Assembly (NCBI GenBank): GCA_020974905.1
Contig: CP087563.1
Coordinates: 5,456,001 to 5,520,000 of the forward strand
DNA from: Planctomycetes bacterium syqfu
GTDB lineage: Bacteria > Planctomycetota > Phycisphaerae > Phycisphaerales > Phycisphaeraceae
Length of the DNA stretch: 64,000 nt
Reading direction: 5' to 3'
Both the position numbers and the translations under genes were made by a program. The notes under the pieces are model-generated. The model ran no database searches. It saw only the letters and a list, made by a program, of their open reading frames with translations, and had not been told where the DNA came from. Shown one piece after another: positions 9,801 to 39,111 of this stretch (positions within the stretch are counted from its first letter, which is position 1; the number at the start of each line of letters is the position of its first letter).

Positions 9801-9827
9801 TAATTATAATTTACGAATGTTAAAGCT

Positions 9828-10538
9828 ATGAGCGTAAAAAAAATATTAATAACTATTGGAGTTTTTGTTATACTTTTGTCTGCTTTCATTTTGATACAGC
9901 AAATGGTAGGTGTGAAAAACATATCAAGTTCAGTTGAAGAGAACCGAGATGTGCTTAGATTGGTAGATGTGGCAAAAGACGCACATTATAAAATTAAATA
10001 CATGGATGATTCTGTCGAATGGAACGATGGAGAGGTTGTTCTGAATGGAAAAATTGTATCTAGTTTCCAGTATAAAGTGTATACCCCTCAATTATTAGTC
10101 GATTCGGTTGTTGATTTTAATTTTAATGACATGTCTCATCCTTTGATGAGCTGTTTAACGCGTCTGTCGTCATTGCAGTATCACAAAGATTTTAGTTTGT
10201 ACTTAAGTGGATTTTACAATCCTGATGAGCAGGAAGAATGGATTAAAAAAAATTACAAGAGTTTGAATTTAGAATTTTCACATTCTCTTTTCATAGAAAA
10301 AAATTTAACGAAAGAGCCGTGTGCAATTGTAGGCGAAGTAAAATGTGATGGTGTCTATTCATTAATTAAAGAACGATATGTTGAAGAGCTAGGACGATAT
10401 TTAATTTACCCGGAAGTTTACATTGAAAAGGATGGAAAGTTTTTTAGAGCAACGAATGGAATTAAGCGGTCTGAAACACTTAAGAGGATGTCGTCTAAAA
10501 ACTTTTCGCTTTTTAGTAAAGAAAAGAGATCAGAATAA
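9828..10538 (+). CDS. Single-pass membrane protein of unknown function
   Basis: A 236-residue protein with one N-terminal membrane helix (residues 5-24, ILITIGVFVILLSAFILI) and a soluble remainder, probably periplasmic. I do not recognise a family. It contains short charged and aromatic stretches and a possible LPYV-like beta region (YLIYPEVYIEKDGKFF) near the C-terminus. It is very AT-rich. Its stop shares a base with the next start (TAATG), which implies translational coupling within the operon. A structural or accessory subunit is the most that can be inferred. Confidence 0.6.
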   Translation: MSVKKILITIGVFVILLSAFILIQQMVGVKNISSSVEENRDVLRLVDVAKDAHYKIKYMDDSVEWNDGEVVLNGKIVSSFQYKVYTPQLLVDSVVDFNFNDMSHPLMSCLTRLSSLQYHKDFSLYLSGFYNPDEQEEWIKKNYKSLNLEFSHSLFIEKNLTKEPCAIVGEVKCDGVYSLIKERYVEELGRYLIYPEVYIEKDGKFFRATNGIKRSETLKRMSSKNFSLFSKEKRSE

Positions 10539-11473: not shown

Positions 11474-11474
11474 G

Positions 11475-14400: not shown

Positions 14401-15887
14401 AGACAGGCGGAGCATACTACGATGGGCTATACGGAACTGCGTTACCTGCTCTTACTTCTTTGCGCCAAGTGGGGCGTTTATTTGAAGGTGCTCCACAGTT
14501 GTTGCCAAGCGCTGTCTATCGATATGCCAGCGAGAGTCCGACAGTTAATACTTCGTGTGTAGCGGCATTGAATGCTCCGGGTATGGCGACTGTGGTCATA
14601 TCACGTGAGTTTTCAACTCTCAGAGAATATGAGGTTGTTGCATTGGTGCCGTGGAGTGGACCAACACAATTGGCAATCCAGACCGGATATTTTGATAAAA
14701 AATCACCTTATTATCACATGTCCGATCCACTGCAAAACAAGGTTGAAACCATTACGGTTAAAGACAATCTATTCCGCTGGCATGGTCTCTTGCCAGGCAT
14801 GTCAGTTCTTCGGTTGCTACAAGATGATTCGCGTCGTATTGAACAACCCAAACGACCATCAATTGTATGGGCGAAATCTTCCGGTCCAGTAGAAGCAGAT
14901 TCGTCCATAGCAAACTGCTCGTTCTCGTATCCATCTGAGGGGATGATTAGAGTCAAAGCTTGTGCTTTTAAGGATAATACATATACGACAGGTCAAGGTG
15001 TACGCTCGGAAATGGTTCCTGCAACTAAACCGAAAGGCAAAGAACATATCACGATGTTTCCCGTTGAACCAGAGAGTTTATTAATTACCTATACAACTGA
15101 TAGGGGTGATGATTTATCTCAAAGTGTGTATATCAATTACATACATGGATTGAATCTTGAAGCACAAATGAGCTTTATGGTTTATCCACGTCAGACAATG
15201 CAAAAAGATCATGTAGGAAGTAGTGATACGATCTTATTACGATTTTCTTTGTCTTCCAGTGAAAAGATTCTGCAAGTTCCACTTAGCTTAAATCAATGGA
15301 ACAGAGTTGAAATTCCAGTAAAGAAAATCAACACCAATTCCAGCTGCGTATTGCGAATCATTACGCCACCATTCGACAATGATCGTGTATCAGTTAGTTA
15401 TGAGATCAATGATTTTTCAGCATATGGTTTATCCCATCCCAAGTATGGCTCATCGGGTTTGGAGCATGCAATTGTTCAGCCTTTGAGCGATCACGGTCAG
15501 ATGCAGATTATTTTGTTTGGCAAACCCAATTCGTATGGTGAATACCGATACTATCCCAAGCCCGGTTGGAAAATAACGAAAGTGCAATTGAATGATGGTT
15601 CCGTGCCAGATCAGTTCAAGGATGTGATTCCGGCTGCGACCCTCACGACAGTTGATCAAAAGGAACCACCCAAAGAACAGGATGATGCAGAGCAAACGAA
15701 CATACAATTGAATTCTGTTTCCGGTGATCTGGCAGCTTTTTGTCATTTTGGTGATCCATTGTCGTATCAAAACCGGCAAGTGATCTTGCGGCAGCTGGTT
15801 GGTGAGCCATTAAAGGTGATGAAGGAAAATCCTGAGCTTGTACCAATGATCATTCGTTTGGAGCAGGAGTATCACGTTGAGCAGTAA
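11475..15887 (+). CDS. Large membrane protein with terpenoid-cyclase-like (squalene/prenyltransferase repeat) domain
   Basis: About 1470 residues. I chose TTG at 11475, directly after the upstream stop; earlier in-frame TTGs exist. A membrane helix at about 15-38 anchors it. Residues about 185-550 form an alpha/alpha barrel of the squalene-cyclase/prenyltransferase type, shown by repeated QW-like motifs (LAKKQASDGSWGG near the start, LVKNQESDGSWKV near the end) and by GGFSQG and LTPVGTLCMQLLGL. The catalytic DXDD of true cyclases was not found, so this is likely a binding domain, as in alpha-2-macroglobulin-type proteins. The rest is beta-rich with a Gly-rich loop (GIVEWIGGGGSS). It is followed by TPR, ExbB and ExbD genes, a neighbourhood seen in planctomycetes. 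The 5' end is AT-rich, the remainder more balanced. Confidence 0.75.
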   Translation: MRYIGDICKKNKGSFWLLLLLVQVVYWSAIIYVLIKNPKSEFIENEINKQVRVDISLYKELHHEKNLNRFDGGGASFSSQSFAKSINDLQCLIKEQKYVEIFDVKEYFTDRTGRISVLSVQELNLDELTGPVITGSKDTKSNSDILGPPGYQRGNSLISRISAVYRQTAVKSNGGSDQTEKAVLKALRYLAKKQASDGSWGGIASRNTGDVVALSSLCLLAFLGHGEHYQSKEFGPTVIEGIDYLLYAAQIPSVEYVGHGFGHAILTYTLAEAYAVTGDLKIKPVLEARVHAIVQRQNSLGSFSVDYSNDLVDEAPSADSLEHMTDEQRAVAVQVIAGEPTCDLSLLGWHVQAITAAKVAGITVDGLDEAIEKANSALIQVHQARDGGFSQGINSKRFPANPVLTPVGTLCMQLLGLGDSTVTKRAGPIIASDDGNLPMPNWSGGIKRVKGESFTSVKSPDPFPLYRWYYLTQTVFQATEGKGKIWQRWNENLKFELVKNQESDGSWKVKSDSEDFRLKDKNDLTIYSTSMATLMLEVYYRYLPSYSIREAPKKEMDVAARLDAAKLGLLSRMREGIDPDAALLLGAGIRQINPIQFGQFNGKPTATSAPLVTEEFQTYTTLTSTIGVRKSEDFPQVVQPNQRVALFLDNLLPAGFQWHMVMYLAIRHDNFPPVSTYQHLEVVINGQTIHNECLERKRNLVTVLVPADQLRNFGNVLEIRNNGPKPICFDAVRLTTPDLPGKRLFIAAEDWDTLPKDSQYLFNAALIQVGIQDDKSFPEKSEILAVKVLKPDDSSLWSRRSALWMLRQNIEKFTSLSPANKQLLKDLSRSINQVMLKRTEPIIQLDGVLNPDAVELIAAAFGPFVEYWSLKNMAYESMESIIRFHCPSATFITPQSIGAGYDLFVYQGFDGVREPAKFLMRQESYDPTRSYWGYWHASSEQRLGEEMQVRELQRSGRGIVEWIGGGGSSVILGKIKTGGAYYDGLYGTALPALTSLRQVGRLFEGAPQLLPSAVYRYASESPTVNTSCVAALNAPGMATVVISREFSTLREYEVVALVPWSGPTQLAIQTGYFDKKSPYYHMSDPLQNKVETITVKDNLFRWHGLLPGMSVLRLLQDDSRRIEQPKRPSIVWAKSSGPVEADSSIANCSFSYPSEGMIRVKACAFKDNTYTTGQGVRSEMVPATKPKGKEHITMFPVEPESLLITYTTDRGDDLSQSVYINYIHGLNLEAQMSFMVYPRQTMQKDHVGSSDTILLRFSLSSSEKILQVPLSLNQWNRVEIPVKKINTNSSCVLRIITPPFDNDRVSVSYEINDFSAYGLSHPKYGSSGLEHAIVQPLSDHGQMQIILFGKPNSYGEYRYYPKPGWKITKVQLNDGSVPDQFKDVIPAATLTTVDQKEPPKEQDDAEQTNIQLNSVSGDLAAFCHFGDPLSYQNRQVILRQLVGEPLKVMKENPELVPMIIRLEQEYHVEQ

Positions 15888-18288
15888 GTTGCTGACAACT
15901 TGTTTGCTGCTGTTGTTGACCATGATTGGCCGGGCTGAAGATGCTCCGCCTACACCATTAGCCAATCTATCATCCGAAGCATCGCAACAGATATTGGATT
16001 GGATTCGTAGCGAAGAGTTGCTGGACGATTTTGATAAGCTTCGAATGCAGGCTGAAAAGTTGTCGGAGTTGCTGAGTAAGACGGAGCAAACGCAGTCTGC
16101 GATGAGATTGATGTTAACCCGTGCTCGTTATCGCCAGGAACATCATCTGGTGGGTAGTCAGGCGTTTGCACGTGACGTGTTGAAATGTCTGCAACATGAG
16201 AGCCAAACGGATACCCCCGCCAAGGCGATTGCTTATGCGATTATGGTGGCTGAGGCACAGGACTTGAGCGGGGTGTCGGGGAAGGCTGCTCAAACGTTGG
16301 AGGACTGCCTGCAAGCGTATTTTCCTGAAATGCTGAAACATTCGGCATTGGTACGGCGAGAGTTGCCACCCGCTGCAAGAACCATGTTGATGCAGTTAAG
16401 TGATCTTTACTTGAGGCAGGCTGAAACCTCGCTTGATGTGAATGACAAGAGAAAATGGTATGGCCTGGCTGCGGGATGCTTGATTCGAATCGCGTCGTCA
16501 GAAAGTGGTAAAAATTTCGGTGACGGGAAGGTTGACAAAGCACTGTTACTGAAAATATCAACTTGTCAGGATGCGTTGGCATTAATGGGGAACAAGCTGA
16601 ATGTACCCACATTCCTGCGTGATCAATTAGGTGAGAGCAATGTGGGGTTGGTTCAGCAATTGATACGGAACCGAAAATACCATGCAGCACTCGAATTGAT
16701 TGGGCGTAGTGAACCTTCCCAATCGTTGGAGCTTTTTCGGTTGACATGCCAGTTGGAATTGGGACGTGTTGAAGATAGTTTGAAATGCGCTCAAATGTTG
16801 GCAAAAGAATATGGCAATGCGATTGAAGTCCACGAAGCTATTTTATCTGCTGCGGATCAATTGGAATCAATGAAGCACGCGGAGCAGGCAACACAGTTGT
16901 ATTTGCTGTTTGCAGATACGGCCCAAGACCACGCTAAAGCGCCTGATGCGTTACTCAAACGGGCGACCTATTGCAGAACACACAAACAACTGGAAGAAGC
17001 CGCAAAGCTTTTTGAGCGTGTTGCTGATCAGTATCCACAGCGAACGGAACTCACAGCTAAATGTTATTTCAGTGCAGCCCAGTGCTATCAGCAGATCCAA
17101 CAGTTCATGCAAGCCAAAGATTGTGCCGTGAAAGCTGAAGCCAAAGCGGATACGGAGTTTCGAAGCTTGGCAGGATTTCTGGCTGCGTACAGTGCCTTGC
17201 AGTATGCACTGCAAGAAAATACCGGCAGCGATGCGAAGCAACAAGAAGCGACTTGGGCCAAGGAGCATTTTGCCGTTGTATTAGCTGACAAAACAATTCA
17301 ACTTCTCATGCGCAGGCAAGCCAGCCAAGGTGCCCAGATTGCTGCTGAAACATCTGGGAATGTCGTTGATGCAGTACATTACCTTGAAGCCTATCTCAAA
17401 TGCCAAGGTGTTCAGCCGGGTCCGTCCGACACGCAAACTGCCAGACGCCTGATGGTGATGGCAGCCCAACAGAGGAATGTTAGGTGCATCCTGCAACTTT
17501 CAGATGTGATCCTTAAGCAGTCAATCCCAGAGAATATTCCATTGGCTATGGGTGCTATGGATGCGTTGATCAAACTCAATGCACAAGCCGACGCATTTAC
17601 CATCTGCAAGCAATTGCAGCTACTCGAATCAATTCCCGATACTCATCTGCTGCGTGTTGTCAAAATGCTAGACAGTCAGGATTTTGACAACCATCGTAAG
17701 CAGGCGGATCAAATGCAATTGTCATTGGCGACGCCACGATTGGATCATGTGTCCGAAGCGACGCGTGAAATCCTGCTCTATCAGCTTTCCGTCACGGCAT
17801 CACGATTGACAGATTTTGATCAGGCATTGGTATTGTTGAATCGACATTTGGGCAAGGATTATGCCTACAAATACCTTGAATCCAAAATGCTTCGTGCGTC
17901 CGTATTGGTTCATTTGAACCGACGTGAAGATGCCCGAAAGGATTACAAAGAAGTGTTATTGGCTAGTAGGGAACAGGCATTAACCATACAGACTTCGGCA
18001 TTGCTGGCACAAACCTATGTCCAAGACCAACAGTGGCAGCAAGCGTTGTCTTCAGCCTGCTTCTGTTTGCCGTTGTTGCAGAATCCGAACTTGCCATCAG
18101 ATCAACTTGAATCATTACGCCAATGCCTGGAAATTGTCTGCGATGCATACTTGCAGTTGGGACAACAAGAACCATTTAGAAAATATGTTGAGCAATATAT
18201 AAAAGTATTTCCTGAAGGTGCCAAAGTGGAGCAATACCAGAAAGCACTGGAAAAATTAAGTATGAATACCCAAGGTGAAAAACCATGA
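15877..18288 (+). CDS. Exported TPR-repeat protein
   Basis: 803 residues starting at a TTG that overlaps the upstream gene by 11 bases. Signal peptide at residues 1-21 (LLTTCLLLLLTMIGRAED). The mature protein is a long helical solenoid with many recognisable TPR units (AAKLFERVADQYPQRTELTAKC, AQCYQQIQQFMQAKDCAV, ALVLLNRHLGKDYAYKYLES, KMLRASVLVHLNRREDARKDYK in shorter parts). Such YbgF/CpoB-like periplasmic TPR proteins often stand beside TolQ/TolR genes and bridge the motor to its partners; that role is inferred here. The stop overlaps the ExbB start by four bases. Confidence 0.78.
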   Translation: MSSKLLTTCLLLLLTMIGRAEDAPPTPLANLSSEASQQILDWIRSEELLDDFDKLRMQAEKLSELLSKTEQTQSAMRLMLTRARYRQEHHLVGSQAFARDVLKCLQHESQTDTPAKAIAYAIMVAEAQDLSGVSGKAAQTLEDCLQAYFPEMLKHSALVRRELPPAARTMLMQLSDLYLRQAETSLDVNDKRKWYGLAAGCLIRIASSESGKNFGDGKVDKALLLKISTCQDALALMGNKLNVPTFLRDQLGESNVGLVQQLIRNRKYHAALELIGRSEPSQSLELFRLTCQLELGRVEDSLKCAQMLAKEYGNAIEVHEAILSAADQLESMKHAEQATQLYLLFADTAQDHAKAPDALLKRATYCRTHKQLEEAAKLFERVADQYPQRTELTAKCYFSAAQCYQQIQQFMQAKDCAVKAEAKADTEFRSLAGFLAAYSALQYALQENTGSDAKQQEATWAKEHFAVVLADKTIQLLMRRQASQGAQIAAETSGNVVDAVHYLEAYLKCQGVQPGPSDTQTARRLMVMAAQQRNVRCILQLSDVILKQSIPENIPLAMGAMDALIKLNAQADAFTICKQLQLLESIPDTHLLRVVKMLDSQDFDNHRKQADQMQLSLATPRLDHVSEATREILLYQLSVTASRLTDFDQALVLLNRHLGKDYAYKYLESKMLRASVLVHLNRREDARKDYKEVLLASREQALTIQTSALLAQTYVQDQQWQQALSSACFCLPLLQNPNLPSDQLESLRQCLEIVCDAYLQLGQQEPFRKYVEQYIKVFPEGAKVEQYQKALEKLSMNTQGEKP

Positions 18289-19043
18289 GACGAATCGGGA
18301 TAGATAAGGTTGTCTATATATTGGCAGTATTCTCAAGCGTGGGAGTTTGCTTTGGGCAGGATCAGGTAAACGCCACCGTGGAAAAAGGCCAAACATTACT
18401 TGACGTGATCATTGCAGGTGGGCTGATCAGTATTCTGATCTGGTCCATGCTGTTTGTTGTATCAGCAGCCGCTTTGCTCTTGGCCGTCTACTGCGTTCAC
18501 CTGATGAGTCGGCGGTATTTCAATCCCAGCGATTTGGTTGAAACCATCGGCGAATTGGTTAAGACGAAAAAATGGCGTGAAGCTGCTGAAACCTGCCAGG
18601 AGTTTGAATCAATTTTTTCAGAAGCCATGGAAGTGATTTTACTGAATGCTGCCAAAGGCGAAGAGGTTGCCTCAGAAGCTGCATCCAAAGCCATCACCCA
18701 GCGAACCAGAAGCATATCCCGTCAGATCGGCACCTTGCAGATGTGTGCAAACATCGCGCCCATGCTTGGCTTGCTGGGAACGGTCACCGGTATGGTCAGT
18801 GCTTTCATGGGATTGGGTACCGCAGTGGGCGCAGAGAAAGCATCCGTGTTGGCCATCTCTATTGCCCAGGCACTTTACACCACGACAGCAGGTTTGCTCA
18901 TTGCAGTCCCTGCCATCGCCGTTGCTCATTTCTGTCGGAATAAGCTGGAGCATCGCACAACGGAACTCGTGCAGGAAGTCGAAGAAACATCCGAACCGAT
19001 CTGGAAAACGATCCGGAAAAAGAAACATGCCGATCAGGATTGA
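18285..19043 (+). CDS. MotA/TolQ/ExbB family proton channel protein
   Basis: 252 residues. It has a signal-like first helix (10-24), a second helix at about 45-72 and the conserved paired helices of the family: QIGTLQMCANIAPMLGLLGT then VTGMVSAFMGLG (about 148-182) and SIAQALYTTTAGLLIAVPAI (about 193-212). The GLLGTVxGM and LYTTxxGLxxAxPA signatures are diagnostic. Together with ExbD/TolR it makes the proton-driven stator that powers envelope work such as outer-membrane transport. ATGA overlap with the TPR gene upstream and 17-base overlap with the ExbD gene downstream show a coupled operon. Confidence 0.93.
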   Translation: MRRIGIDKVVYILAVFSSVGVCFGQDQVNATVEKGQTLLDVIIAGGLISILIWSMLFVVSAAALLLAVYCVHLMSRRYFNPSDLVETIGELVKTKKWREAAETCQEFESIFSEAMEVILLNAAKGEEVASEAASKAITQRTRSISRQIGTLQMCANIAPMLGLLGTVTGMVSAFMGLGTAVGAEKASVLAISIAQALYTTTAGLLIAVPAIAVAHFCRNKLEHRTTELVQEVEETSEPIWKTIRKKKHADQD

Positions 19044-19479
19044 AGCAAATACTGAGGATGAAAATCTATCGGTCGCATCGCTCTCGTCGATGATTGATAT
19101 CATTTTCCTGCTGATTATCTTCTTCGTGGTTACCGCTTCATTTGATAATGCCCAGTTGGATCAAGCTGTGCTCTTACCGCACCTCGATGGCCAGACACCA
19201 ATCAAATCATTGCCACCCGAGCGATTGATCATCAATGTGCGGCAAGATGGTGAAGTGCGTGTCGGCTTCGTCAGCATTCCCCCGGATCAGATCACTCAAC
19301 AGTTGCCAACCGTTCTGAAGCAAAGTATTCACAGCAATGATACGCAAGTCATCCTCAATGGCGATGAACGTGCCAAACATAAATACATCGCACAAGTGAT
19401 GGAGGCCGTAGCCGCGATTGGGTACAGTAATCTGGAAATCAATGCCGCAGTCGGTGAACAGGATCAGAACGACTCATGA
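19027..19479 (+). CDS. ExbD/TolR family protein (first copy)
   Basis: 150 residues from the ATG at 19027; longer in-frame versions run antisense-free through the ExbB gene but lack homology. The single membrane helix has the family signature with its proton-relay Asp: SLSSMIDIIFLLIIFFVV (about 18-36), Asp at about 24. The periplasmic part has the usual beta-alpha pattern (RLIINVRQDGEVRVG; QVILNGDERAKHKYIAQVMEA in shorter parts). It partners ExbB. It is the first of two non-identical ExbD genes, a pattern common in planctomycetes. It overlaps the second copy by four bases. Confidence 0.9.
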   Translation: MPIRIEANTEDENLSVASLSSMIDIIFLLIIFFVVTASFDNAQLDQAVLLPHLDGQTPIKSLPPERLIINVRQDGEVRVGFVSIPPDQITQQLPTVLKQSIHSNDTQVILNGDERAKHKYIAQVMEAVAAIGYSNLEINAAVGEQDQNDS

Positions 19480-19910
19480 AGTTGAACGTCAACAGTTTGT
19501 CTGAGGAAGACACCTCGCAATCCATGTCCGCGATGACGGATGTGGTATTCCTGCTACTGATCTTTTTCGTGGTTACGACCGGCGCGTGGGTTAAAACCAC
19601 CTTGATCGACACCGCACTTCCACAGGACAGCGGCGGTGCAGGGCCAAACATGCTCAAGAGCATCCAGCTCGAAATATCAGCTTACGAAGAAAAACAACCC
19701 ACCATGCTCTACCGTGTCAATGGCATCCCGCACACCAAAGATCAACTAGCCCAAACCCTACAACAATTCGGCAGCTACTCCCGCGAAAGCGACATCATGA
19801 TCCAATGCGACAACGAATCCCGTCATGGTGAATTGGTGTACCTTTTGTCCTTGTTGCATGCCAATCACCTGGATAAGATTCAGATTTTAAAACCTATTGT
19901 CAAAGAATGA
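19476..19910 (+). CDS. ExbD/TolR family protein (second copy)
   Basis: 144 residues. Membrane helix with the relay Asp in SAMTDVVFLLLIFFVV (about 18-33). The periplasmic part is shorter of recognisable strands but ends in the family pattern of an exposed residue check (SRHGELVYLLSLLHANHL, about 115-132, matching the V...D...G..I arrangement). Only about the membrane segment resembles the first ExbD, so the pair probably forms a heteromeric stator. It is the last gene of the nine-gene operon; no clear intrinsic terminator follows. Confidence 0.88.
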   Translation: MKLNVNSLSEEDTSQSMSAMTDVVFLLLIFFVVTTGAWVKTTLIDTALPQDSGGAGPNMLKSIQLEISAYEEKQPTMLYRVNGIPHTKDQLAQTLQQFGSYSRESDIMIQCDNESRHGELVYLLSLLHANHLDKIQILKPIVKE

Positions 19911-23251: not shown

Positions 23252-23276
23252 CCGTCCCAGATAACTAACTGAGGTT
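23252..23276 (+). repeat. Left terminal inverted repeat of the IS1595-like remnant
   Basis: 25 bases beginning CCGTCCCAGATAA and ending CTGAGGTT; pairs with 23555-23579 in inverted orientation with four mismatches in the middle. Confidence 0.65.
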
Positions 23277-23328
23277 ATAAAGGACAGTCAGGCGAAAGAG
23301 TCGGCTAAGTGAGGCGAATCAGTCTCGT

Positions 23329-23553
23329 TTGATCAAGCATTTTGTAGCAGGCAAGACGCCTGTATTCGGCATTTTGAAGCGTAAAAACAAGGTGTTTACG
23401 AAGATGATCTCCAACGCACAACCTAAAACCTTGATGCAGTCATCCGAAAGAATATCAATCCCGACAGTATCGTCTACAGGGATTCGCTTCCGTCGTACAA
23501 TATCATGGATGTATCCGAGTTCAAGCACGAACGCATCAACAACGGGTTTGTGA
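23329..23553 (+). pseudogene. IS1595 (ISXO2-like) transposase fragment
   Basis: Translation gives GKTPVFGILKRKNKVFTKM, the start of the DDE transposase core after its first Asp, then a frameshift near 23437-23442, after which the match continues in another frame (NPDSIVYRDSLPSYN, then DVSEFKHERINNG). The second catalytic Asp is the D of VYRD. The N-terminal zinc ribbon, the first Asp and the final HINGIENFW part with the Glu are missing. Not functional. Confidence 0.72.
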
Positions 23554-23554
23554 A

Positions 23555-23579
23555 AACCTCAGCTGTTTATCTGGGACGG
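23555..23579 (-). repeat. Right terminal inverted repeat of the IS1595-like remnant
   Basis: Reverse complement begins CCGTCCCAGATAA and ends CTGAGGTT, matching the left repeat at 23252-23276 at 21 of 25 positions. Confidence 0.65.
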
Positions 23580-23699: not shown

Positions 23700-24518
23700 A
23701 TGGATAAAAAAAAAGTTATTGACAATATCATGTGTCTCTTGTTTACACCAGTCCCCTCATATGTTGAAGCATTTGGTATTGGTGGTTCCTATGCAACAGG
23801 CTGTAATGATTCATTCTCGGATATTGATATTTTCGTATTGGTTAAGGAAAACGAGCTCGAAATCGCAATTGTTGACATGCCAGTAATTGCAAAAAAAATT
23901 TCATCCCCACTGCTTAGTAAGGGGCCTGTGAAATACTGGGGGTATGGTTTTGTTTTTACATATTTTTATTCCGATTTCCTAATCCAAATAATGTTGAATG
24001 ACCGTACTACGCTTGACAATTCACCCGCAAGAGCAAACACCGAAATCATATACGATCCTATTGGATTCTATTCGGAATATACGCAGAAAATGAAAGGTGT
24101 AGGATGGAATTACAAAGCTATTCTAGAACAGGCTTGCAATTATTTTGGCTTGAGGTTACTTAGTATTAGAAAATCTCTTTCCAGAAATAATATATGGATG
24201 TCGGTATCATATTTATGTGACCTAAGGAAAGAACTGTTTGTTATTGAACGAATAGTTCATAATTGCGATCCAGTCGATTTTCAGTTCCCGGAAAAAAATA
24301 TAGAAAAGGATTTGATCAATTTTGGTATTAATGATTACAGTTCGACTTATCCGGATTTTTGCGTTCAATCAATATACAACTGTACGCTCAGGTTGATTGA
24401 AAAGTTTGAAATTTTATCAGGTTACATCAAGAGTAATAAAGATATAGATGAGATTTTCAAGGGTGTTTTTGTTTCTATTTTTAAGTTCAAGACAAGTGAT
24501 TTAAATAAAAATGTGTAA
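23700..24518 (+). CDS. Nucleotidyltransferase (pol-beta superfamily, aminoglycoside/lincosamide-NTase-like)
   Basis: 272 residues. The catalytic pattern GGSYATGCNDSFSDIDIFVL (residues about 28-47) gives the GS and the Asp-x-Asp of the pol-beta nucleotidyltransferase fold; SDFLIQIML about 45 residues later may supply the third acidic residue. The helical C-terminal half resembles stand-alone NTases that adenylylate small molecules or proteins. It lacks the size and the layout of a CBASS CD-NTase, so second-messenger synthesis is not assumed. First gene of a very AT-rich five-gene operon with a class III cyclase; it overlaps the next gene by eight bases. Confidence 0.75.
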   Translation: MDKKKVIDNIMCLLFTPVPSYVEAFGIGGSYATGCNDSFSDIDIFVLVKENELEIAIVDMPVIAKKISSPLLSKGPVKYWGYGFVFTYFYSDFLIQIMLNDRTTLDNSPARANTEIIYDPIGFYSEYTQKMKGVGWNYKAILEQACNYFGLRLLSIRKSLSRNNIWMSVSYLCDLRKELFVIERIVHNCDPVDFQFPEKNIEKDLINFGINDYSSTYPDFCVQSIYNCTLRLIEKFEILSGYIKSNKDIDEIFKGVFVSIFKFKTSDLNKNV

Positions 24519-25044
24519 CTGCATTTCTGAAATAGAATACGATAAAGTTGTTAAGTTTTTATATGAAATCTATCCAGAGAGCGGGTTTAAAATCAATCTG
24601 GAGAAAGTTAATGTTGAGGATATAAGCCCATTGTCAGGTTATGCAGTTTTAAAAAGAATGCATTTTGTTAATAAGCTTTATGAGTTATATTGTATGTGTG
24701 GAGTTCAGATTTGGAGGCCATCTGCTTTTCCGTTTCAATCTGGTTACAAATTGATTTTGCCTCCGGTTGTTGAGAGTAGAGGAAGCAATTTGGTTGTTGT
24801 GGACGGAACGCACAGATTGTTTTACTGTTATAAACAAGACATATCCATGGCGTATGTGTTTATAGTTGATGGTGTTGTAGGTGATTTGCCTTGCGATCCT
24901 AAAAAGTGGCAAGATGTACAAGAAGTTTTGGTTACAAAAAAATTGAGAGATATTTTTCCTGAAGCTTCAAAGTTCAACTTTAGGCCTGTAGGAAAATATT
25001 TGAGCTCTCTGTCATTAATGGTTAAAAATTTGGAGGAATTATGA
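24511..25044 (+). CDS. ParB/sulfiredoxin-like protein
   Basis: 177 residues. The central part LPPVVESRGSNLVVVDGTHR (about 86-105) followed by LFYCYKQDISMAYVFIV is the ParB-like fold, where the DGxHR motif binds and hydrolyses a nucleotide (CTP in ParB, ATP in related kinases and sulfiredoxin). No DNA-binding HTH follows, so it is not a partition protein. In accessory clusters such single-domain forms act as kinases, nucleases or DNA-modifying partners. Coupled to the NTase upstream by overlap and to the next gene by ATGA. Confidence 0.62.
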   Translation: MCNCISEIEYDKVVKFLYEIYPESGFKINLEKVNVEDISPLSGYAVLKRMHFVNKLYELYCMCGVQIWRPSAFPFQSGYKLILPPVVESRGSNLVVVDGTHRLFYCYKQDISMAYVFIVDGVVGDLPCDPKKWQDVQEVLVTKKLRDIFPEASKFNFRPVGKYLSSLSLMVKNLEEL

Positions 25045-25679
25045 CTGACTCTATTCTAATTGGTTCGGAATCTGAAGGATTGGGAAACATTGTCCCTTGT
25101 GGAACTATCCCTCAAAGGGCGACTTTTTCGTCTGTGTTGCTTTTCCCAATACATACTGGTGAAGGTAGATCTATTGTTGTATATGATTATGATCCCCAAA
25201 ATTGGAAATTATGGTTTCCTCTATTTTCCAATGTCGAGTGGGATTTAGACATCGCTGGGGGGGCTGTAAAATATTCAGATTTAATCTCAAAGGTTGAACT
25301 ACAAGCTCTCTATGACGATGTTTCTCCTGTAGGAGTACTTGATCTGACATTAAAGGATATTGAAGATAAAACAGGTATTCGCGGCCTACAGTGTATAAAT
25401 GAAGTGTTTCGGCCTAGGGAGTTTTGGTTGAAGTATTCAAAGACGAGAAAAATATGGTCTTTTTATTCTTTTGATTATTGGGTTGTTGATAAATGTGATA
25501 CTGATATTTATAAGTATTCAGAGATGACTGGAGCTATTGAAATCATGCCGATAGAAGGTGGTAAATTTGAAAGTATAAAGAAAACAGGTAAATTTAAAGG
25601 TAAGGGGATTGCTGACAATTTATTGTCTATACTCAGAGATGAATCAGAGACAGACCGTTTGCTTACGATGTCGTCATGA
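25041..25679 (+). CDS. Unknown protein, possibly a degenerate Nudix fold
   Basis: 212 residues, AT-rich. The order of features recalls Nudix proteins: an opening strand (ATFSSVLLFPI), a strand plus turn (IVVYDYDPQNWKLWFPL), a helix with DIEDKTGIRGLQ where a Nudix box would end, then KTRKIWSFYSFDYWVV and a late EIMPI strand. The catalytic Glu pattern of a true Nudix box is absent, so a non-catalytic ligand-binding role is more likely. Overlaps the ParB-like gene by four bases and is followed 44 bases on by a nucleotide cyclase, so it may sense the cyclase product. That link is inference. Confidence 0.45.
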   Translation: MTDSILIGSESEGLGNIVPCGTIPQRATFSSVLLFPIHTGEGRSIVVYDYDPQNWKLWFPLFSNVEWDLDIAGGAVKYSDLISKVELQALYDDVSPVGVLDLTLKDIEDKTGIRGLQCINEVFRPREFWLKYSKTRKIWSFYSFDYWVVDKCDTDIYKYSEMTGAIEIMPIEGGKFESIKKTGKFKGKGIADNLLSILRDESETDRLLTMSS

Positions 25680-25723
25680 CTTAAAACGAAATTATAGCTT
25701 ATTCACTCAGATAGGTGTACTAA

Positions 25724-27139
25724 ATGGTAGGCCCATATTCTATTATAGACAAATTGCCCAGTTTTGAGAATCTTGTAAGTTCACCATCTGCGTTGTGGTT
25801 ATTACATGTCCTTGAGATATCAGTGAAGTGTAAAGATGTCTGTTCAATGTTGTTGGAGTTTCCAAGTTATCCGTTGATAGGCACAAAGAATCCAGCATCT
25901 ACTTGGACGCCACCTTTTATAGCTTATAATGTTCCATTAGGTATGAATATACCAACAACTGTTGGTGCCGTGATGCGGTCGTTTACTGATGCTGAGCGTT
26001 CTATAAATGTTAAAGATGGTATTATGAGGAAGTTGTATCATATGGGCATAACTGCTGCTGAATTAACTCCACGGGAAACATTTGTGGAATATAAGCAGTC
26101 GCCGCGAGAAAGGGAGAAAACTAAGTGTTATAAAATATGTCGATTTTCATGTAAAGTTGAAAAGGGTAGTGGTATACTCAATGTTGCCGATCCAGAGGGG
26201 CTTAAAGGTATATATTTTTTACCTTTAAGTAATATAAAAAATTATTTGCAGTCCTATGATCGAGGGCCTGATGGTCTGTGTGAACTATTTTTAGGACGAC
26301 CAATCGCATCGAATTTAAGTAAAGTTCTTTCTAGTGATGGCGAAGTTGAAAGGTTGATAGGAGATGCTGTAGATGTTGAAGAAAGTATTTTTAGATATTC
26401 TTTGCAAGGGGTCGTAGTTTTACTAGATATATCGGGATTTGGTGAGGCTTGTAAAATAATTCGTAGCCAAATGGGCACTTTTGAAGTTGAAGGAGAAGAT
26501 GTTGAGTCTTGGTTTGCTCAAATTTTGTCAAGACATTTTGGTGAGGAGCTAATAAAGTGTGGTATTGTTCAATTTAAAATAACCGGTGATGGATTCATGG
26601 CATCTGTTCCATGCGAAGATGCGACTGTTTTTAATACTCTTAAAAAGATACTCCGTTGCATAATAGGTATTAGAAAGATTGTAAAAAAATTTGATACTAA
26701 ACTTTCTGAGTACGGAGGCCAACTTGACCTTCGAGTTGCATTGCATTGGGGAAATTATAGGTATGGACGTATCGCTTCAAGTTTCAGTTTGCAGCCAGAT
26801 TTTGAAGGTAGAGTTTTTACAGAGTTGGCTAGAATTGAGGAGGGGATGAAAATGATAAATAAAGGTTTTATTAATTGTAAAATATACAGTGAAATTAAAA
26901 AAATTAAGAACTGTTGTAAAGACCGTAGTTCGGTAAAAAAAATTGAGAGGCTGCTTCTGAAATATGGGCCTGTTCAGAAAGGAAAGATGAAAAGTGCTAG
27001 AGTTGCAATTTCATCTACCTTGATGGAATTGTGTTCAGATAAATTAAAGATAATAGGTGATATAAATTATTGTGGAAGAAAAAAGTTGCAAGTTAAAGAA
27101 AAACAGTGTGACTTTGCTTTATTCGGGTTTGATGATTAA
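25724..27139 (+). CDS. Class III nucleotide cyclase with an N-terminal Nudix-like region
   Basis: 471 residues. The cyclase domain spans about 226-400. Seen: VVLLDISGFGEA with the first metal Asp at 235, KITGDGFMASV with the second metal Asp at 289, and LRVALHWGNYRYG with the transition-state-type Arg region near 337. These are the key residues of adenylate/guanylate and Pycsar-type pyrimidine cyclases, so an active enzyme making a cyclic mononucleotide is likely; the base cannot be told. Residues 60-200 (YHMGITAAELTPRETF, CYKICRFSCKV, GIYFLPLSNI) resemble the degenerate Nudix-like protein encoded just before. No membrane helix. Probably the signal-producing part of this AT-rich operon. Confidence 0.78.
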   Translation: MVGPYSIIDKLPSFENLVSSPSALWLLHVLEISVKCKDVCSMLLEFPSYPLIGTKNPASTWTPPFIAYNVPLGMNIPTTVGAVMRSFTDAERSINVKDGIMRKLYHMGITAAELTPRETFVEYKQSPREREKTKCYKICRFSCKVEKGSGILNVADPEGLKGIYFLPLSNIKNYLQSYDRGPDGLCELFLGRPIASNLSKVLSSDGEVERLIGDAVDVEESIFRYSLQGVVVLLDISGFGEACKIIRSQMGTFEVEGEDVESWFAQILSRHFGEELIKCGIVQFKITGDGFMASVPCEDATVFNTLKKILRCIIGIRKIVKKFDTKLSEYGGQLDLRVALHWGNYRYGRIASSFSLQPDFEGRVFTELARIEEGMKMINKGFINCKIYSEIKKIKNCCKDRSSVKKIERLLLKYGPVQKGKMKSARVAISSTLMELCSDKLKIIGDINYCGRKKLQVKEKQCDFALFGFDD

Positions 27140-27177
27140 ATTTACATTAAAGACATGTTTTTTTGTTATGTAATTGA

Positions 27178-27954
27178 TTGAAAACATACAATTTTAATCT
27201 TTTAGTTAGAAAATATGCAATGATATATAACTATACAAATTGCAAGAATGAATTATGTTTAATGTTGCAGCGTAATGGCTTGGTCTGCAATGAGGTTGTG
27301 TCAGATTTTTTTTCTGAATTTGTTGAAACTAATAACTTGATAAGTTTTTTGTGTGATATTTTAAATAGTGAAAAATTGGTCAGAAATATTGCAGATAAAT
27401 CGTATATGCATAGTAATGGATTTGATAAGATTGTCCTGGTAGATAATTTTAATGATGGGTGTAAATTGCGGTTGCATGTGTGGTGGCCGTATTCTGATGC
27501 AGGCGGTTATTTATCGCAAGAGTCTGATATTCATAATCACAGATGGGATTTTATGTCAAAAGTGATGTTGGGTACTCTGCACGTAAAGGAGTTTGTTGTT
27601 TCGTCATCAGGAGTCAATATGTCAGAATATCGGTATGTCTCTCCCGGAACAAAAAATAATATTGAACTGTCATATATTGGAAAGGCTAGGGTGAAAATGG
27701 TTGCGGCCTCCAAGCTGAAGGTTCCTGCGTTGTATTTGCAAAAGAATAATACACTGCATCAGGTTGTGGCAGATCGAAAAAAAATGGTCGCTACTCTTGT
27801 GGTTCAAGGACCTGTTTTGAAAAATTATACGAATGTTTATAAAAGTGCGACCTCTGATAGTTCATGTTGCAACTTTAATGTAATTAGAATGACGGAGCTA
27901 GACTTGTTTTTTAAATTAACCAAATTAATTCAGTATTTACAGAATAATAGATAA
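27178..27954 (+). CDS. Cupin-like protein
   Basis: 258 residues from a TTG; an ATG at 27220 (residue 15) is an alternative and neither has a strong ribosome-binding site. The middle has a double-stranded beta-helix signature: LRLHVWWP, then SDIHNHRWDFMSKVMLGTLH with the HxH metal pair, and LYLQKNNTLHQVVAD (later His). This is the metal-binding arrangement of cupins such as dioxygenases and sugar isomerases. Last gene of the AT-rich operon; it converges with the truncated ATPase on the other strand. Its job relative to the cyclase is unknown: enzyme or ligand sensor are both possible. Confidence 0.62.
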   Translation: MKTYNFNLLVRKYAMIYNYTNCKNELCLMLQRNGLVCNEVVSDFFSEFVETNNLISFLCDILNSEKLVRNIADKSYMHSNGFDKIVLVDNFNDGCKLRLHVWWPYSDAGGYLSQESDIHNHRWDFMSKVMLGTLHVKEFVVSSSGVNMSEYRYVSPGTKNNIELSYIGKARVKMVAASKLKVPALYLQKNNTLHQVVADRKKMVATLVVQGPVLKNYTNVYKSATSDSSCCNFNVIRMTELDLFFKLTKLIQYLQNNR

Positions 27955-27967
27955 TGTTTGGTGAGAT

Positions 27968-28790
27968 TTATGTTGTGTACTTGAAGTACTTTTTAATTCG
28001 TTTTGCTATTTTATTTATATTTGTTCCATATTTTACCCTAGACAGATGTGTAAGTTTATGTCTGCGGTTGTTTGGCAATGATAGTGGAGGAAATGGCTCT
28101 CCTTTAAAAGCGGGGATCTGTTCTCCATCTGAAAGCTTTTTGATATACACTTCGTGATTGCTCAGATCAGTGAAGTGTGACGGGCGAAATTCTTCTCCAA
28201 AATCTTGAGCAAGTAATTCAGCATCTTTCGAACTAACACGAAAAGCAATATGAGTTCCAACATTTCCATAAATTGCGTCGTGAATTTGTTGATCAACTTG
28301 GCCCGAATACTGATGGCTCAACACAAGTGATAGTTTGTACTTGCGAGCTTCAGAAAGTATAGATGCAAAAGAATCCGTAGTGAAGTTTGAAAACTCGTCA
28401 ATGTACAAGTAAAACACTTGACGCTCTGATTCTGGAATATTGGCCCGTCCCATTGCAGCGAGTTGAAACTGTGTCACCAGCAATGCCCCAAGAAGATTGG
28501 CTTTGTCCTGGCCAAGTTTTCCTTTCGCAAGACTGGCAATCAAAATACGTCTATCATCCATCATGAACCGGGGATTGAAACCGCTGCGAATTTGCCCGAA
28601 AATGTTTCGGAACGGAGCAGCCATAAGTAATTGGCCAACCTTATTTTGGATCGGTGCAACGGCTTCACGCATAAAACGTTCGTCGTATTTTTCAAACTCA
28701 TTAACCCAAAATGATCTGATACTGGGGTCTTTGACTTGCTTCACTACCCAAGAGCGGTATTGGGCGTCAGTGAGCATTCGTTGGATAATG
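27968..28790 (-). pseudogene. C-terminal half of a VirD4/HerA-like conjugation ATPase
   Basis: Reading leftwards from about 28790, the protein begins abruptly inside the family at RMLTDAQYRSWVVKQVKDP and continues through MMDDRRILIASLAKGKLGQD, Walker B FYLYIDEFSNFTT and the sensor strand LSLVLSHQYSGQV to the normal C-terminus. The half with the Walker A loop is absent. An open frame does extend upstream to 29281, but that part is the antisense of a recombinase fragment and has no homology. It is similar in kind to, but clearly diverged from, the intact ATPase at 36049. Base composition is less AT-rich than the operon to its left. Confidence 0.75.
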
Positions 28791-28792
28791 GA

Positions 28793-29363
28793 CCTGAGGA
28801 ATGAATCAAAGGAAATCGAGCAGAAGCTCATCAGGCTCAATGAGGGGTACATGGAAGGGTCCTTTACTATTACAGAGTATGCTGATTTGAAGAATCCACT
28901 GGTAATTAAACAGCATGAATTATCACGAGAAATGACTGAAATCAGTGAAAGGCCGTTGGGATGGCTCGAACTTGCTAGAACTTTTATTTTGTCCAGTAAG
29001 TTAGCCGGATTTCTGGCAAAGTCCGATGATTTAGACGAACAATGCAAATTTCTCAAAAACGTTGGCTCGAACCACATTATTCGTGACAAAAAGTTGGAAT
29101 ACAGTCCCTTTGGCGTTTGGAAAAGTGTTGTTTTATATGGTCCGAATCGATCCGAGGATGTTTTGCTCCCTCGCGTGAGCGACGAATTTTCAGAGGATTT
29201 ATTAAAAGGTGAGCTCCCCACCTGGCTATCCGAATCTGTCCTTAAAAAAACACCTGTTATGTCCGTTGGACAATCGGACATTGCCCCTCCAACTACCCCT
29301 CCAAACGAAGTAGCGTGTAAATCAGCAGAGAATGGCTCTGTTGTTGTCTCATCGGGGAATTGA
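28793..29363 (+). pseudogene. C-terminal part of a large serine recombinase
   Basis: From about 28793 the plus-strand frame encodes DLRNESKEIEQKLIRLNEGY and ADLKNPLVIKQHELSREM, the coiled-coil of large serine recombinases, then the usual end (LKNVGSNHIIRDKKLEYSPFGVW). The catalytic N-terminal domain, recombinase domain and zinc ribbon are all missing. Sequence before 28793 is the antisense of the ATPase fragment. Not functional as an integrase. Confidence 0.72.
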
Positions 29364-32345: not shown

Positions 32346-32707
32346 ATTTGCAATATTCAAATTGTTGAAGAAACGGTGTTACGCTTCGGTGGTTTATCTC
32401 CCTAATTGCTTATGGGTTCAAAATGCGAGTATATCGTGATCATTTTCTTGGAACAAGACTGTGACTGATCCGCCTGCCAGATTGTCTTATCGGTCGTTGC
32501 CAATAACAATAAATGGCAGTCTGTCCTTTGAGAAGGCAGTCTGTGACATATTCTTAAGTTGTTTTAAGTAAAAGATTTGCTGACCAATAGTTGCTTCAGG
32601 CTTAATGGCATTCTGTTTGCCGTATGAAATGCCATGGCATATGACGTTTTCATGTCAGATCGTTAGGCGGCAGGTATTGTAGGGACTTATTGCTTGAAAG
32701 GCAAATC
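32346..32707. other. Non-coding gap between the leader RNA and the Pycsar-like operon
   Basis: About 360 bases with no gene. It must carry divergent promoters for the leader RNA (minus strand) and the cyclase operon (plus strand). The only structure seen is a pair of direct repeats at 32515-32544. A GAAAGG ribosome-binding site precedes the cyclase ATG. Confidence 0.4.
32515..32544. promoter_or_regulatory. Direct repeats GGCAGTCTGT spaced 20 bp
   Basis: Two identical 10-base copies of GGCAGTCTGT at 32515-32524 and 32535-32544, start to start 20 bases, which is two helix turns. Candidate operator for a regulator of the cyclase operon about 165 bases downstream. Confidence 0.35.
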
Positions 32708-34216
32708 ATGGATGATCGACGAACTGTAAGAAACTTATCTGGATTGCAGGATATTTTAGAAGCAACAATAAATCCAGGTGAAATTTTAACCAACCGAGGC
32801 TTGATTTCTCATATATACATTAAGCTTGATTTTGAATCCCAATTTGAAAATGCTACAAACGCTGATGATGCGAGAAGTTTTTTGCGTGCTGTTGCTAGGG
32901 GAGCAACGGTGGCCGAATCAATAGCCAGACGCCATAGCGGAAATGTTTTAGAAGTTCAAGGGTCAACTTTGCATGTTGCTCTTCCATCTGGAAATCCTGA
33001 TGCAACATTTGTTGTTGATTACGTGCAAGCTGTTCATCAGGCCTTTAAGGTTCTTTTTGCCAATCCTTCTATTATAAATGGTTGGCGTATGGCTTGTGAT
33101 ACGGGCTTTACTTTGGTTATTCATGATAGGGATGTTCACGACGACACGTCCTTTATTTCACTAGGTGACTCTGCCAATAATCCAGCCAAGTACTTATATA
33201 AAGAATTGAGTTTACCTGAGGATGAGAGAAAATTACAAAAATATCACTTGGCATTATGCTCACCTGCGGGTGTTTGGCTATCTCGTCCAATTGATGAACT
33301 GGCCTCTGGAATAGTCGAGGACTTTAGTGGTATCGGTGAAATTGCTCGAAAGCAAGACATGTTAGTAACTTTACGTAATGCAGGTTTTAAATCGACTTTA
33401 ATCACAGCAAGTGCGGCTCCGATTCAACCCGCTGGTATGCCAGGCTCACCAACAAGTGATCTCCCCGACACATACTTTGGATGGGTAATGAGGGCAGACT
33501 TAGATGGTTTTACCAAACGAGTGAAAGAATGTCAGGATGATGATAGTAAGCTTAATGAGCTCGCTGAGCAGTTTACTAAATTAATGTCTGCGGCAACCCA
33601 ATTTACTCATGAGCATTCAGAGACTTTGGCGCAGTTACCATGGGCCGGAGACAACTACACTGTTGCTGCTGTTTTTACCACTAGGGACGATTACGAGGAT
33701 GCGGCAGAGAAAAGACCAATAGAGCTGGCTCTTGACTTCTCGGAAGTGATGGATGATTTGGCCCAAAAAGTAGGTTTTGGGGGATGGGCGTACGGAATTG
33801 CAGGTGGTGAAGTTCATGGCAGTGCGAAAGCAAACATTTTTATTGGCGGAATTGAATTTCAAGGGCGAAGGATGTTGGTGGGTGCTGGTGAAGGGTTTGG
33901 TAGAAGTTTTCAAGCATTTGGTTCAGTTAACCCAGCTCAATCCCAAGTTGCATGTTTTGTGCCCGATGTAAGAAAATTACGTGATGAATACAAAAACACG
34001 TTTAAACCAGCACGTAATTATGACGGCCAGGTATCATCGCTTTATAGAATTGCGGAAATAAATGAGCTCGAAGAATCAAGAGATGAAATATATACTGCCC
34101 CAAGAAGTACGGTTGTCACATCCAGCAATGGTACGGCAAATACGATCCAAGTCAGGCAGCATTTCAGTCAGAAAGATAGCTCAATTTCGAAATCTGCTTT
34201 CGACTCATTTAAATGA
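32708..34216 (+). CDS. Pycsar-like class III nucleotide cyclase, tandem domains
   Basis: 502 residues from the ATG at 32708, which has GAAAGG upstream. Two cyclase folds in tandem. The first (about 35-190) keeps the shape (NVLEVQGSTLHVALPSG, INGWRMACDTG, ISLGDSANNPAKYLYKE) but has Ser where the second metal Asp should be, so it is probably inactive. The second (about 255-440) has RADLDGFTKRV with metal Asp 264 or 266, LPWAGDNYTVAAVF with metal Asp 315, and WAYGIAGGEVHG, and looks active. It would make a cyclic mononucleotide on phage infection if it is a Pycsar cyclase. The membrane effector gene two positions downstream supports that reading. The C-terminal 60 residues are low-complexity. 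The next gene overlaps its 3' end. Confidence 0.78.
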   Translation: MDDRRTVRNLSGLQDILEATINPGEILTNRGLISHIYIKLDFESQFENATNADDARSFLRAVARGATVAESIARRHSGNVLEVQGSTLHVALPSGNPDATFVVDYVQAVHQAFKVLFANPSIINGWRMACDTGFTLVIHDRDVHDDTSFISLGDSANNPAKYLYKELSLPEDERKLQKYHLALCSPAGVWLSRPIDELASGIVEDFSGIGEIARKQDMLVTLRNAGFKSTLITASAAPIQPAGMPGSPTSDLPDTYFGWVMRADLDGFTKRVKECQDDDSKLNELAEQFTKLMSAATQFTHEHSETLAQLPWAGDNYTVAAVFTTRDDYEDAAEKRPIELALDFSEVMDDLAQKVGFGGWAYGIAGGEVHGSAKANIFIGGIEFQGRRMLVGAGEGFGRSFQAFGSVNPAQSQVACFVPDVRKLRDEYKNTFKPARNYDGQVSSLYRIAEINELEESRDEIYTAPRSTVVTSSNGTANTIQVRQHFSQKDSSISKSAFDSFK

Positions 34217-34682
34217 TGAGTCGTTGAAAATTTTACCTTCTGGGTCGCACTGTCTCACTGGTGTTCTAAAGACGAATTCAGTCTTAGTCCCAGCAAAAAT
34301 AAGGGTTTATTATTCACATCGTTTTAGTTGGTTAAGGAAGAATCCGCCAGTTGTGTATTGTGATGAGCCGTGGATGAGGGATTGTGCAGATTGGCATAAT
34401 TCAAAAGAACATGGCATGTGTTGGGTTTTAAATAATGAATGGCGAGAATATCAAGGATGGAAGAACAAACCATCGAGTCTTGTAATTGAAGAGGGTGTTC
34501 ATTGGCTTATAGAATCAACGTCTTTGCTAATCAATAGGCATCATATTGGGAATAAACGTAATTACGAGAAGTGGCCTGAAAAATGGCTCGCATGGAAGCA
34601 TTATGAGGAAGGTGTGAGGCAGTATGAGCAAGAAAAGCGAAGAGGGAAACGAGCAAAAAAAGGAAGGTATCGGCAGACTTGA
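34062..34682 (+). CDS. E2-like (ubiquitin-conjugating fold) protein in the Pycsar-like operon
   Basis: Up to 206 residues. Starts at 34062, 34083 and 34128 are all possible and all lie inside the cyclase gene; the recognisable domain begins only near residue 35 (KIAQFRNLLSTHL), so 34128 would suffice. The pattern after it fits prokaryotic E2 proteins: LPSGSHCLTGVLKT, a strand AKIRVYYSH, PVVYCDEPW, then a His followed by GMCWVLNNEW with the candidate catalytic Cys 120, and a C-terminal helix WLIESTSLL...WLAWKHYEEG. No E1 or JAB partner is nearby, as in E2-only CBASS. It may modify the cyclase or the effector. Not a family I have seen named in Pycsar loci. Confidence 0.52.
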   Translation: MSSKNQEMKYILPQEVRLSHPAMVRQIRSKSGSISVRKIAQFRNLLSTHLNDESLKILPSGSHCLTGVLKTNSVLVPAKIRVYYSHRFSWLRKNPPVVYCDEPWMRDCADWHNSKEHGMCWVLNNEWREYQGWKNKPSSLVIEEGVHWLIESTSLLINRHHIGNKRNYEKWPEKWLAWKHYEEGVRQYEQEKRRGKRAKKGRYRQT

Positions 34683-35316
34683 TTTTTACGAAACTGTTGA
34701 GCACTTTCAAAAAGGATATGAAAATGCTCAGGCTACCACGCGGTTTATGGATACTAAAGCTTCGGCTGTCATTGCTGTTGTGCCAGTAATTATAGCTGCT
34801 CTTATTCAAAGTTTCGCATGGTTTAAAGGGTGGGTGTACTGGAGTCAAACTGTTGACGTTGTTGGTGCTTGGGTTCCGTCAATTATTTGGTTTTACATAT
34901 TGATATATGGGGTATGGATTGTTTTCTCTGTTTGGATGACACTTACTAACGCTTTTTGTGCATTATTGCCAAGAGATACAGGCGATTCTGGATCAAGTAT
35001 CCTTTTTCCTTTCAATCTCAACGTGTTTGTCAGATCGAAAAAAAATGTGAATGATATGGCCGCACGGATTAATCTGTTTGTAGAAGGAGCGACAAGAGCA
35101 GATGTACATTCGGATTATAAAAGGCAATTGTTAAGAATGTCGGATATTGTTGCAATTAAAATGTCTTGTGTGCAGCGTTCGGTCAGACATTTGCAGCTTC
35201 TATTGAAATTGTCGTTGATATTTGTTGTCTTGTTGGTCATTCAAGTTTTCTACAGTGTTGCAATTATTAACATTGCGGCGTGGCCTTCATTTGTCTTGAT
35301 TTTTTGGGCCAAGTAA
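34624..35316 (+). CDS. PycTM-like membrane effector (DUF5706 type)
   Basis: 230 residues; the start overlaps the E2-like gene by 59 bases and has GAGG upstream. The hallmark segment MDTKASAVIAVVPVIIAALI (about 38-57) is the DTKAS helix of Pycsar transmembrane effectors. A second helix follows (SIIWFYILIYGVWIVFSVW, about 86-104), then a soluble helical part (DYKRQLLRMSDIVAIKMSCV, about 160-180) and a closing hydrophobic pair from about 192. In known systems the cyclase product makes this protein damage the inner membrane and stops phage spread. Function here is inferred from the fold and from the cyclase two genes upstream. Confidence 0.72.
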   Translation: MSKKSEEGNEQKKEGIGRLDFYETVEHFQKGYENAQATTRFMDTKASAVIAVVPVIIAALIQSFAWFKGWVYWSQTVDVVGAWVPSIIWFYILIYGVWIVFSVWMTLTNAFCALLPRDTGDSGSSILFPFNLNVFVRSKKNVNDMAARINLFVEGATRADVHSDYKRQLLRMSDIVAIKMSCVQRSVRHLQLLLKLSLIFVVLLVIQVFYSVAIINIAAWPSFVLIFWAK

Positions 35317-39000: not shown

Positions 39001-39111
39001 CGTTCTCCGTTGGATGCAAATGAGCGTTCAGAGCGGATGAAGTCTATCAAGCGTACCATTGCTGGTGCTGCGATCCGTCGTGGCAGTCGAGGGAACAAAG
39101 ATGAATCGTAA
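36049..39111 (+). CDS. VirD4/HerA-like conjugation ATPase with C-terminal nuclease-like domain
   Basis: 1020 residues. The ATPase core has Walker A GASGSGKST (about 412-420) and Walker B FYLYIDEFHHF (Asp 656, Glu 657), with an LGLILAHQELRQLES sensor region after it; this is the type IV coupling-protein/HerA translocase family that pumps DNA. The first 380 residues are a less conserved domain with an alpha/beta look. After a charged, Pro-rich linker (about 790-855) is a third domain: AQIEKPILEGRGAVDVALY then ISIACEIS, where Asp 883 and Glu 896 match the PD-(D/E)xK pattern but the final Lys is Ser 898. It may be a nuclease or only a DNA-binding relic. Overlaps the recombinase gene by 11 bases. 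Confidence 0.83.
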   Translation: MADPLAQYLTQRFYDWEVRGRGWCSYDESVTPEPPFIPFYGHFVDQYVTPADDGRRETLLSQLAKRALALFKTKQSEPEPESIPEIKEKVRFDRVRGLSHISIVLPQEITYPKDITEQFLLNLSQCQYPVCLELVGRSGAVSVHLTVDVSDEIQATTVLQSHFPDAIITPEDDPILKYWQDEVPTGVFNFGLADEFMLPLRCYRSFAPDPLTGLIATLGMLQTGEMAAFQIRFEPTRYPWAESIRRSVLLPSGKPFFTNAPDFAKQALSKISSPLYGVNIRAITQAADIDQVCGIIQRISASLSTLDNPQGNSLNLLHNSKSDVDELPIDVITRCSKLSGMILSLDELLSLVHLPGATIATPTLVRSAIKTKPAPEIACKGSLILGENIHAGKVKTVGQTREQRVRHTYLIGASGSGKSTLLSSMIKQDIEQGNGFGVLDPHGDLIDVVLSHVPPERFDDVVLLDLADEEYPIPFNILSAHTELEKNLLASDLAASFERLASSWGDVMTAVLSNAILAFLESDKGGTLADLRRFLVEKQFRAKFLSTVRDPEVAYYWQHEFPLVSGKPQGSIVTRLNTFLRPKPIRYMVSHGENHLDVSDMMNTGKIFLARIPQGAIGEENAFLLGTLLVSAFHRSALSRQSVDATQRKPFYLYIDEFHHFVTPSMAQILSGARKYGLGLILAHQELRQLESRNSDVASAVISNPATRICFNLGDQDAKRLESGFASFTASDLQNLSVGNAICRMERSEFDFNLRVPLPPKVNSDDAKMRETEIRKRSRKRYAVQRSDVEKILEQYRADMPVAKRKHPKPKVVQDIPLEKPQEQAPEVEPVTKTETIQKPASTPGRGGQKHKSIQRLIKHWAEGMGYRAQIEKPILEGRGAVDVALYKGDISIACEISITTPTDHECANLIKCLDAKFDHVAMIADEEERLEKVRKKSKTTLENTTYQQVHFMLPQQLFRFIEELEQSAVNSSTTVRGYRVKINRSPLDANERSERMKSIKRTIAGAAIRRGSRGNKDES

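Follow-up and report, generated by a model that had tools for sequence, protein, structure and literature searches.

The window analyzed here, a 64,000-nt stretch of Planctomycetes bacterium syqfu (CP087563.1, positions 5,456,001-5,520,000, forward strand), carries at 23700-27954 a cassette of five intact open reading frames, all on the + strand. Four of the five encoded proteins belong to recognizable families: a nucleotidyltransferase (NTase), a ParB-fold protein, a class III nucleotide cyclase, and a cupin. Based on these families and on the genomic contexts of their relatives, we tentatively interpret the cassette, with somewhat less than even confidence, as an operon for nucleotide signalling that arrived by horizontal transfer and most likely acts against phages. 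The five-gene set was found once, and nowhere else within the reach of our searches.

Anatomy, composition, and surroundings of the cassette

The cassette and its flanking remnants are composed of the following features, in window positions:

23252..23579, strand not assigned: IS1595-family remnant of about 330 bp, with a broken transposase fragment and 25-nt inverted repeats (88%)
23700..24518, + strand: gene 1, Pol-beta-type NTase, 272 aa
24511..25044, + strand: gene 2, ParB-fold protein of the Parb-CE family (PF24392), 177 aa, motif V97-D-G-T-H-R102
25041..25679, + strand: gene 3, 212 aa, without family match
25724..27139, + strand: gene 4, divergent class III nucleotide cyclase recognized by profile alignment, 471 aa
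26411-26950, within gene 4: cyclase domain, about residues 230-409; the N-terminal region (residues 1-225) has no assigned fold
27178..27954, + strand: gene 5, cupin with an HxH...H pattern, 258 aa from a TTG start (possible ATG at 27220)
27968..28789, - strand: truncated TraG/HerA-like ATPase gene (TraG-D_C match)

The GC content of the individual genes is 34-37% (GC3 27-34%), as compared with 47-49% in two adjacent upstream genes; two genes from beyond the island have 52-55%. The longest open stretch runs to 471 codons, whereas Markov simulations of the region (n=500) reached 207 at most, and the five genes are therefore not chance open reading frames. Genes 1 and 2 overlap by 8 bp and genes 2 and 3 by 4 bp, whereas genes 4 and 5 each follow a gap, of 44 and 38 bp, respectively. 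An AT-rich run of five genes had been recognized in the sequence-only reading, which described them all as tightly overlapping; the description is true of genes 1-3 only. The two gaps allow for separate transcription of genes 4 and 5. Promoter and terminator scans gave no clear surplus over shuffled sequences.

Remnants of mobile elements are located on both sides of the cassette. The IS1595-type fragment lies upstream, and its match to DDE_Tnp_IS1595 is sub-threshold (E 0.069). The truncated TraG/HerA-like gene downstream is 33% identical (BLASTP E 6e-33) to an intact gene at 36049-39111. Together with the composition unlike that of the neighboring genes, the remnants make the previously proposed horizontal arrival of the cassette well supported. 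The + strand at 28790-29363 resembles by eye the C-terminus of a serine recombinase; a Pfam scan of the open reading frame gave no match. A large serine recombinase, possibly the integrase of the island, is encoded at 39059-40597. A partly AT-rich cluster at 5473-19910 contains genes of TPR proteins, MotA/ExbB, two ExbD-type genes, and large unassigned proteins, and had no PADLOC match among the proteins scanned.

A Pycsar-like locus (32690-35316), with matches to PycC (E 0.0015) and PycTM (E 1.4e-13), is positioned 5 kb downstream of the cassette. Its own cyclase is encoded at 32690-34216 and has no BLAST similarity to gene 4, which agrees with the earlier designation of gene 4 as a second, unrelated cyclase. 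The PycC-like protein is 508 aa long, and its end is overlapped by 155 bp by the gene of a 206-aa protein. The latter appears E2-like by eye, and matched neither Pfam nor PADLOC.

The five proteins and their relatives

The sequence-only reading called gene 1 an NTase, gene 2 ParB-like, gene 4 a class III cyclase, and gene 5 a cupin, and the comparisons described below bear these calls out. The NTase call for gene 1 is provided by a match to NTP_transf_2 (E 7.8e-7). The protein retains the GGS (G29, S30) and DxD (D41, D43) motifs. In an alignment with a single relative, from G077 (28% identity), Gln96 stands at the position of the third catalytic Asp, which makes the catalytic activity of gene 1 doubtful. 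Weak matches link gene 1 to PDC-S09 of PADLOC (E 0.00084) and to lincosamide and aminoglycoside NTases.

Gene 2 belongs to the Parb-CE family, though as a distant member. It passes the curated cut-off of the family (24.6 bits, cut-off 23, E 2.8e-5), with residues 20-135 aligned to positions 17-145 of the 147-position profile, as compared with 170 bits for its relative in locus L055. We take CE to stand for conflict effectors that are predicted to degrade nucleotides; Nicastro et al. reportedly described such conflict effectors and their predicted nucleotide degradation in 2023. We know of no description of a Parb-CE protein with a partner set like that of gene 2. Two later papers, PMC10853773 and PMC12839542, cite Nicastro et al. 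in connection with ParB proteins, or other domains, that act on pools of nucleotides.

Other relatives of gene 2 occur in loci L053 and L057. In L053, from genome G415, a patatin-iHKD protein with a gene-2-like C-terminus adjoins a gene matching an AEP-like primase of Pfam. In L057, on Kovacikia plasmid pA, a patatin-iHKD-ParB fusion adjoins a gene of a poly(A)-polymerase-like NTase (weak match, E 0.053), and MntA/HepT-type genes as well as cas6, cas4, and cas1 lie downstream of the fusion. The C-termini of the two fused proteins are directly similar to gene 2 (E 2e-6 and 1e-5), and fall short of the Parb-CE model. The two loci resemble the cassette in placing a ParB-type domain beside a nucleotide-polymerizing enzyme, but differ from it in the patatin and iHKD domains, which the cassette lacks. 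The fusion and the adjacent AEP-like or poly(A)-polymerase-like gene (L053 6356-9104; L057 4626-7417) possibly constitute a separate defence pair.

The protein encoded by gene 3 matched no family in Pfam, NCBIfam, or PADLOC, and nothing in the PDB convincingly. It had previously been called degenerate Nudix-like; hhalign comparison to three Nudix proteins gave a probability of 0.2, and the name was dropped. A motif in the C-terminal part of gene 3 resembles one in the N-terminal region of the cyclase. The Smith-Waterman score of gene 3 against cyclase residues 1-225 was reached by 5 of 2000 shuffles in what was one among several comparisons, and the weak similarity is a hint that the two regions may be related. 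Single-sequence AlphaFold2 models of gene 3 and of the cyclase had a mean pLDDT near 35 and were set aside.

The cyclase encoded by gene 4 is below Pfam detection and becomes visible by profile comparison only. Its profile match scores 20.6 bits, as compared with at most 7.2 among 2000 shuffles, and hhalign against 23 cyclases of the same phylum gives a probability of 90 over 165 columns. Read by eye, the alignment shows the metal-binding Asp pair (D235 and D289) and R370 retained, and the transition-state Asn replaced by T366. The match to PycC of PADLOC is weak (E 0.011). A match of gene 4 to Obg/CgtA was set aside as likely due to chance.

Gene 5 encodes a cupin with a predicted three-histidine metal site; no Pfam model matched the family. 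Residues H78, H100, H119, H121, and H194 are conserved in 42-45 of the 45 aligned sequences. The putative metal ligands of the HxH...H pattern are retained in relatives, H119 and H121 in all 45 sequences and H194 in 42. The 44 cupin relatives comprise 39 genome-scan loci and 5 plasmid loci, with one record common to both sets. Among 70 neighboring proteins scanned, some of which match two families, there are six OMP decarboxylases, six thymidylate kinases, five His phosphatases, three Nudix proteins, and three deoxynucleoside kinases. In Acinetobacter, the cupin adjoins a thymidylate-kinase-like gene, Cas_NE0113, and Card1. Other cupin loci have a biosynthetic look, with OMP decarboxylase, thymidylate kinase, HisG, SAICAR synthetase, and adenylation and carrier proteins. 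The partners vary among the lineages examined. Judged from these neighbors, what the cupin handles is probably a nucleotide or a related phosphorylated compound, either in defence or in biosynthesis.

Distribution of the gene set and its possible function

The sequence-only reading would count it as a refutation if homologs of the five genes were not found together elsewhere, and within the reach of our searches they were not. No phmmer match (E up to 10) to the NTase, ParB-fold protein, gene 3, or cyclase was present near any of the 44 cupin relatives, around which loci of up to 20.7 kb were covered (shorter at contig ends, so that the reach differs). The cyclase was sought in 391 further genomes of the phylum and found in none. 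A search of the phylum with the NTase, ParB-fold protein, and gene 3 pointed to G415 and G077 only, and a search of the order with all five genes to G077 only; gene 3 and the cyclase gave no more than marginal matches in the class (E 0.02-0.09). The samples of phylum, class, and order genomes overlap, and none of the genomes in them carries the five-gene set. Plasmid tblastn returned six matches for the cupin, one for the ParB-fold protein (Kovacikia), and none for the NTase, gene 3, or cyclase. Phage tblastn with the cupin and cyclase as queries found no match, and scans of viral contigs with the five proteins and the ParB protein of L055 found no relatives. The wider scan of genome contigs used the cupin alone as a query, placing cupin-less NTase-ParB-gene 3-cyclase loci of other phyla out of its reach. 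PADLOC had no system match for the five genes; the sequence-only reading had recognized no named defence or biosynthetic system with this set.

In the Clover system, the Pol-beta NTase CloB restrains the dNTPase effector CloA, providing a precedent for NTase-regulated nucleotide-degrading effectors (PMC12265719). The cassette likewise pairs a Pol-beta-type NTase with a protein whose effector class is predicted to degrade nucleotides. However, none of its five proteins matches an HD-domain dNTPase, the candidate effector has a ParB fold instead, and the cassette has a cyclase and a cupin besides. Whereas the Clover NTase has three catalytic carboxylates, gene 1 keeps D41 and D43 and has Q96 as the third in the one-relative alignment. 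The cassette is Clover-like in logic and not a member of Clover. Pycsar combines a class III pyrimidine cyclase with a PycTM or PycTIR effector. The cassette resembles it in that its class III cyclase keeps the metal Asp pair and is encoded within a defence island, but differs in the weakness of the PycC match, the lack of PycTM or PycTIR among the five genes, and the presence of further proteins.

We hypothesize that the five genes are co-regulated and that the cyclase makes a cyclic mononucleotide upon infection. The Parb-CE protein would be the effector that binds or degrades NTPs. The NTase, or a nucleotide bound to it, may tune or restrain the effector, as CloB restrains CloA, and the three-histidine cupin and gene 3 may sense or process the nucleotide. 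The proposal is favored by the Parb-CE cut-off passed by gene 2, the cyclase match with its retained catalytic residues, the contexts of the ParB and cupin relatives, the Pycsar-like neighbor, the overlaps between genes, and the shared low GC content. It is weakened by the absence of the set from the other loci and genomes searched, the lack of a PADLOC system, the missing third carboxylate of the NTase at the aligned position, and the gaps ahead of the last two genes. Nor does any of the five genes have a recognizable membrane, TIR, or nuclease effector as its product. The idea of a nucleotide signal with its sensors, put forward in the sequence-only reading, gains support, as does a defence-like role, from the family and relatives of the ParB-fold protein and from the neighbors of the cupin relatives, but loses the Nudix-like fold of gene 3. 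The more specific version is a new kind of immune operon: a signal from the cyclase would control the ParB-fold protein as a nucleotide-degrading effector, the NTase would act as a restraint, and the cupin would process or sense the signal. As a whole, this version is in our judgment improbable.

Since the set was found only once, two other explanations are retained. The genes may be chance cargo of a mobile island without joint function: an NTase-ParB-gene 3 unit, an independent cyclase with or without a partner, and a stray cupin. We consider this possible, though well short of probable. It would fit the single occurrence of the set, the gaps ahead of the cyclase and cupin genes, the mobile-element remnants on either side, and the differences in cupin partners between the lineages examined. 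The five genes are, however, intact, lie on one strand, and are similar in composition, including GC3, and all but gene 3 are tied to nucleotides by their family or by the contexts of relatives.

It is less likely, and in our view unlikely, that the genes form a small cassette for the biosynthesis or modification of a metabolite derived from nucleotides. The cupin would then oxidize or isomerize a phosphorylated intermediate, the NTase would activate it, the ParB-fold protein would be an SbnI-like small-molecule kinase, and the cyclase would have a regulatory role. The biosynthetic-looking clusters of cupin relatives and the weak matches of gene 1 to lincosamide and aminoglycoside NTases speak for such a cassette, but the five genes include no transporter, regulator, or resistance gene, the usual partners of the cupin are all missing, and neither a class III cyclase nor a Parb-CE protein would be expected.

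If the five genes do form one nucleotide-signalling system, it would use a ParB-fold protein to join two established branches of nucleotide-based immunity in bacteria, cyclic-mononucleotide signalling and NTase-restrained nucleotide-degrading effectors. As the ParB fold binds CTP, ATP, or GTP (PMC12704722), the idea of a ParB effector under the control of a signal can be tested directly. The system would also place in a functional setting, for a first time, a cupin family whose genes are repeatedly neighbors of nucleotide-metabolism genes. Cupins of this family are part of a conserved four-gene module in Acinetobacter and Bacteroidetes (L019, L033, and L034, about 9761-12265), which is composed of the cupin, a thymidylate/deoxynucleoside-kinase-like protein, a protein that is GreA-like by eye, and a small protein.
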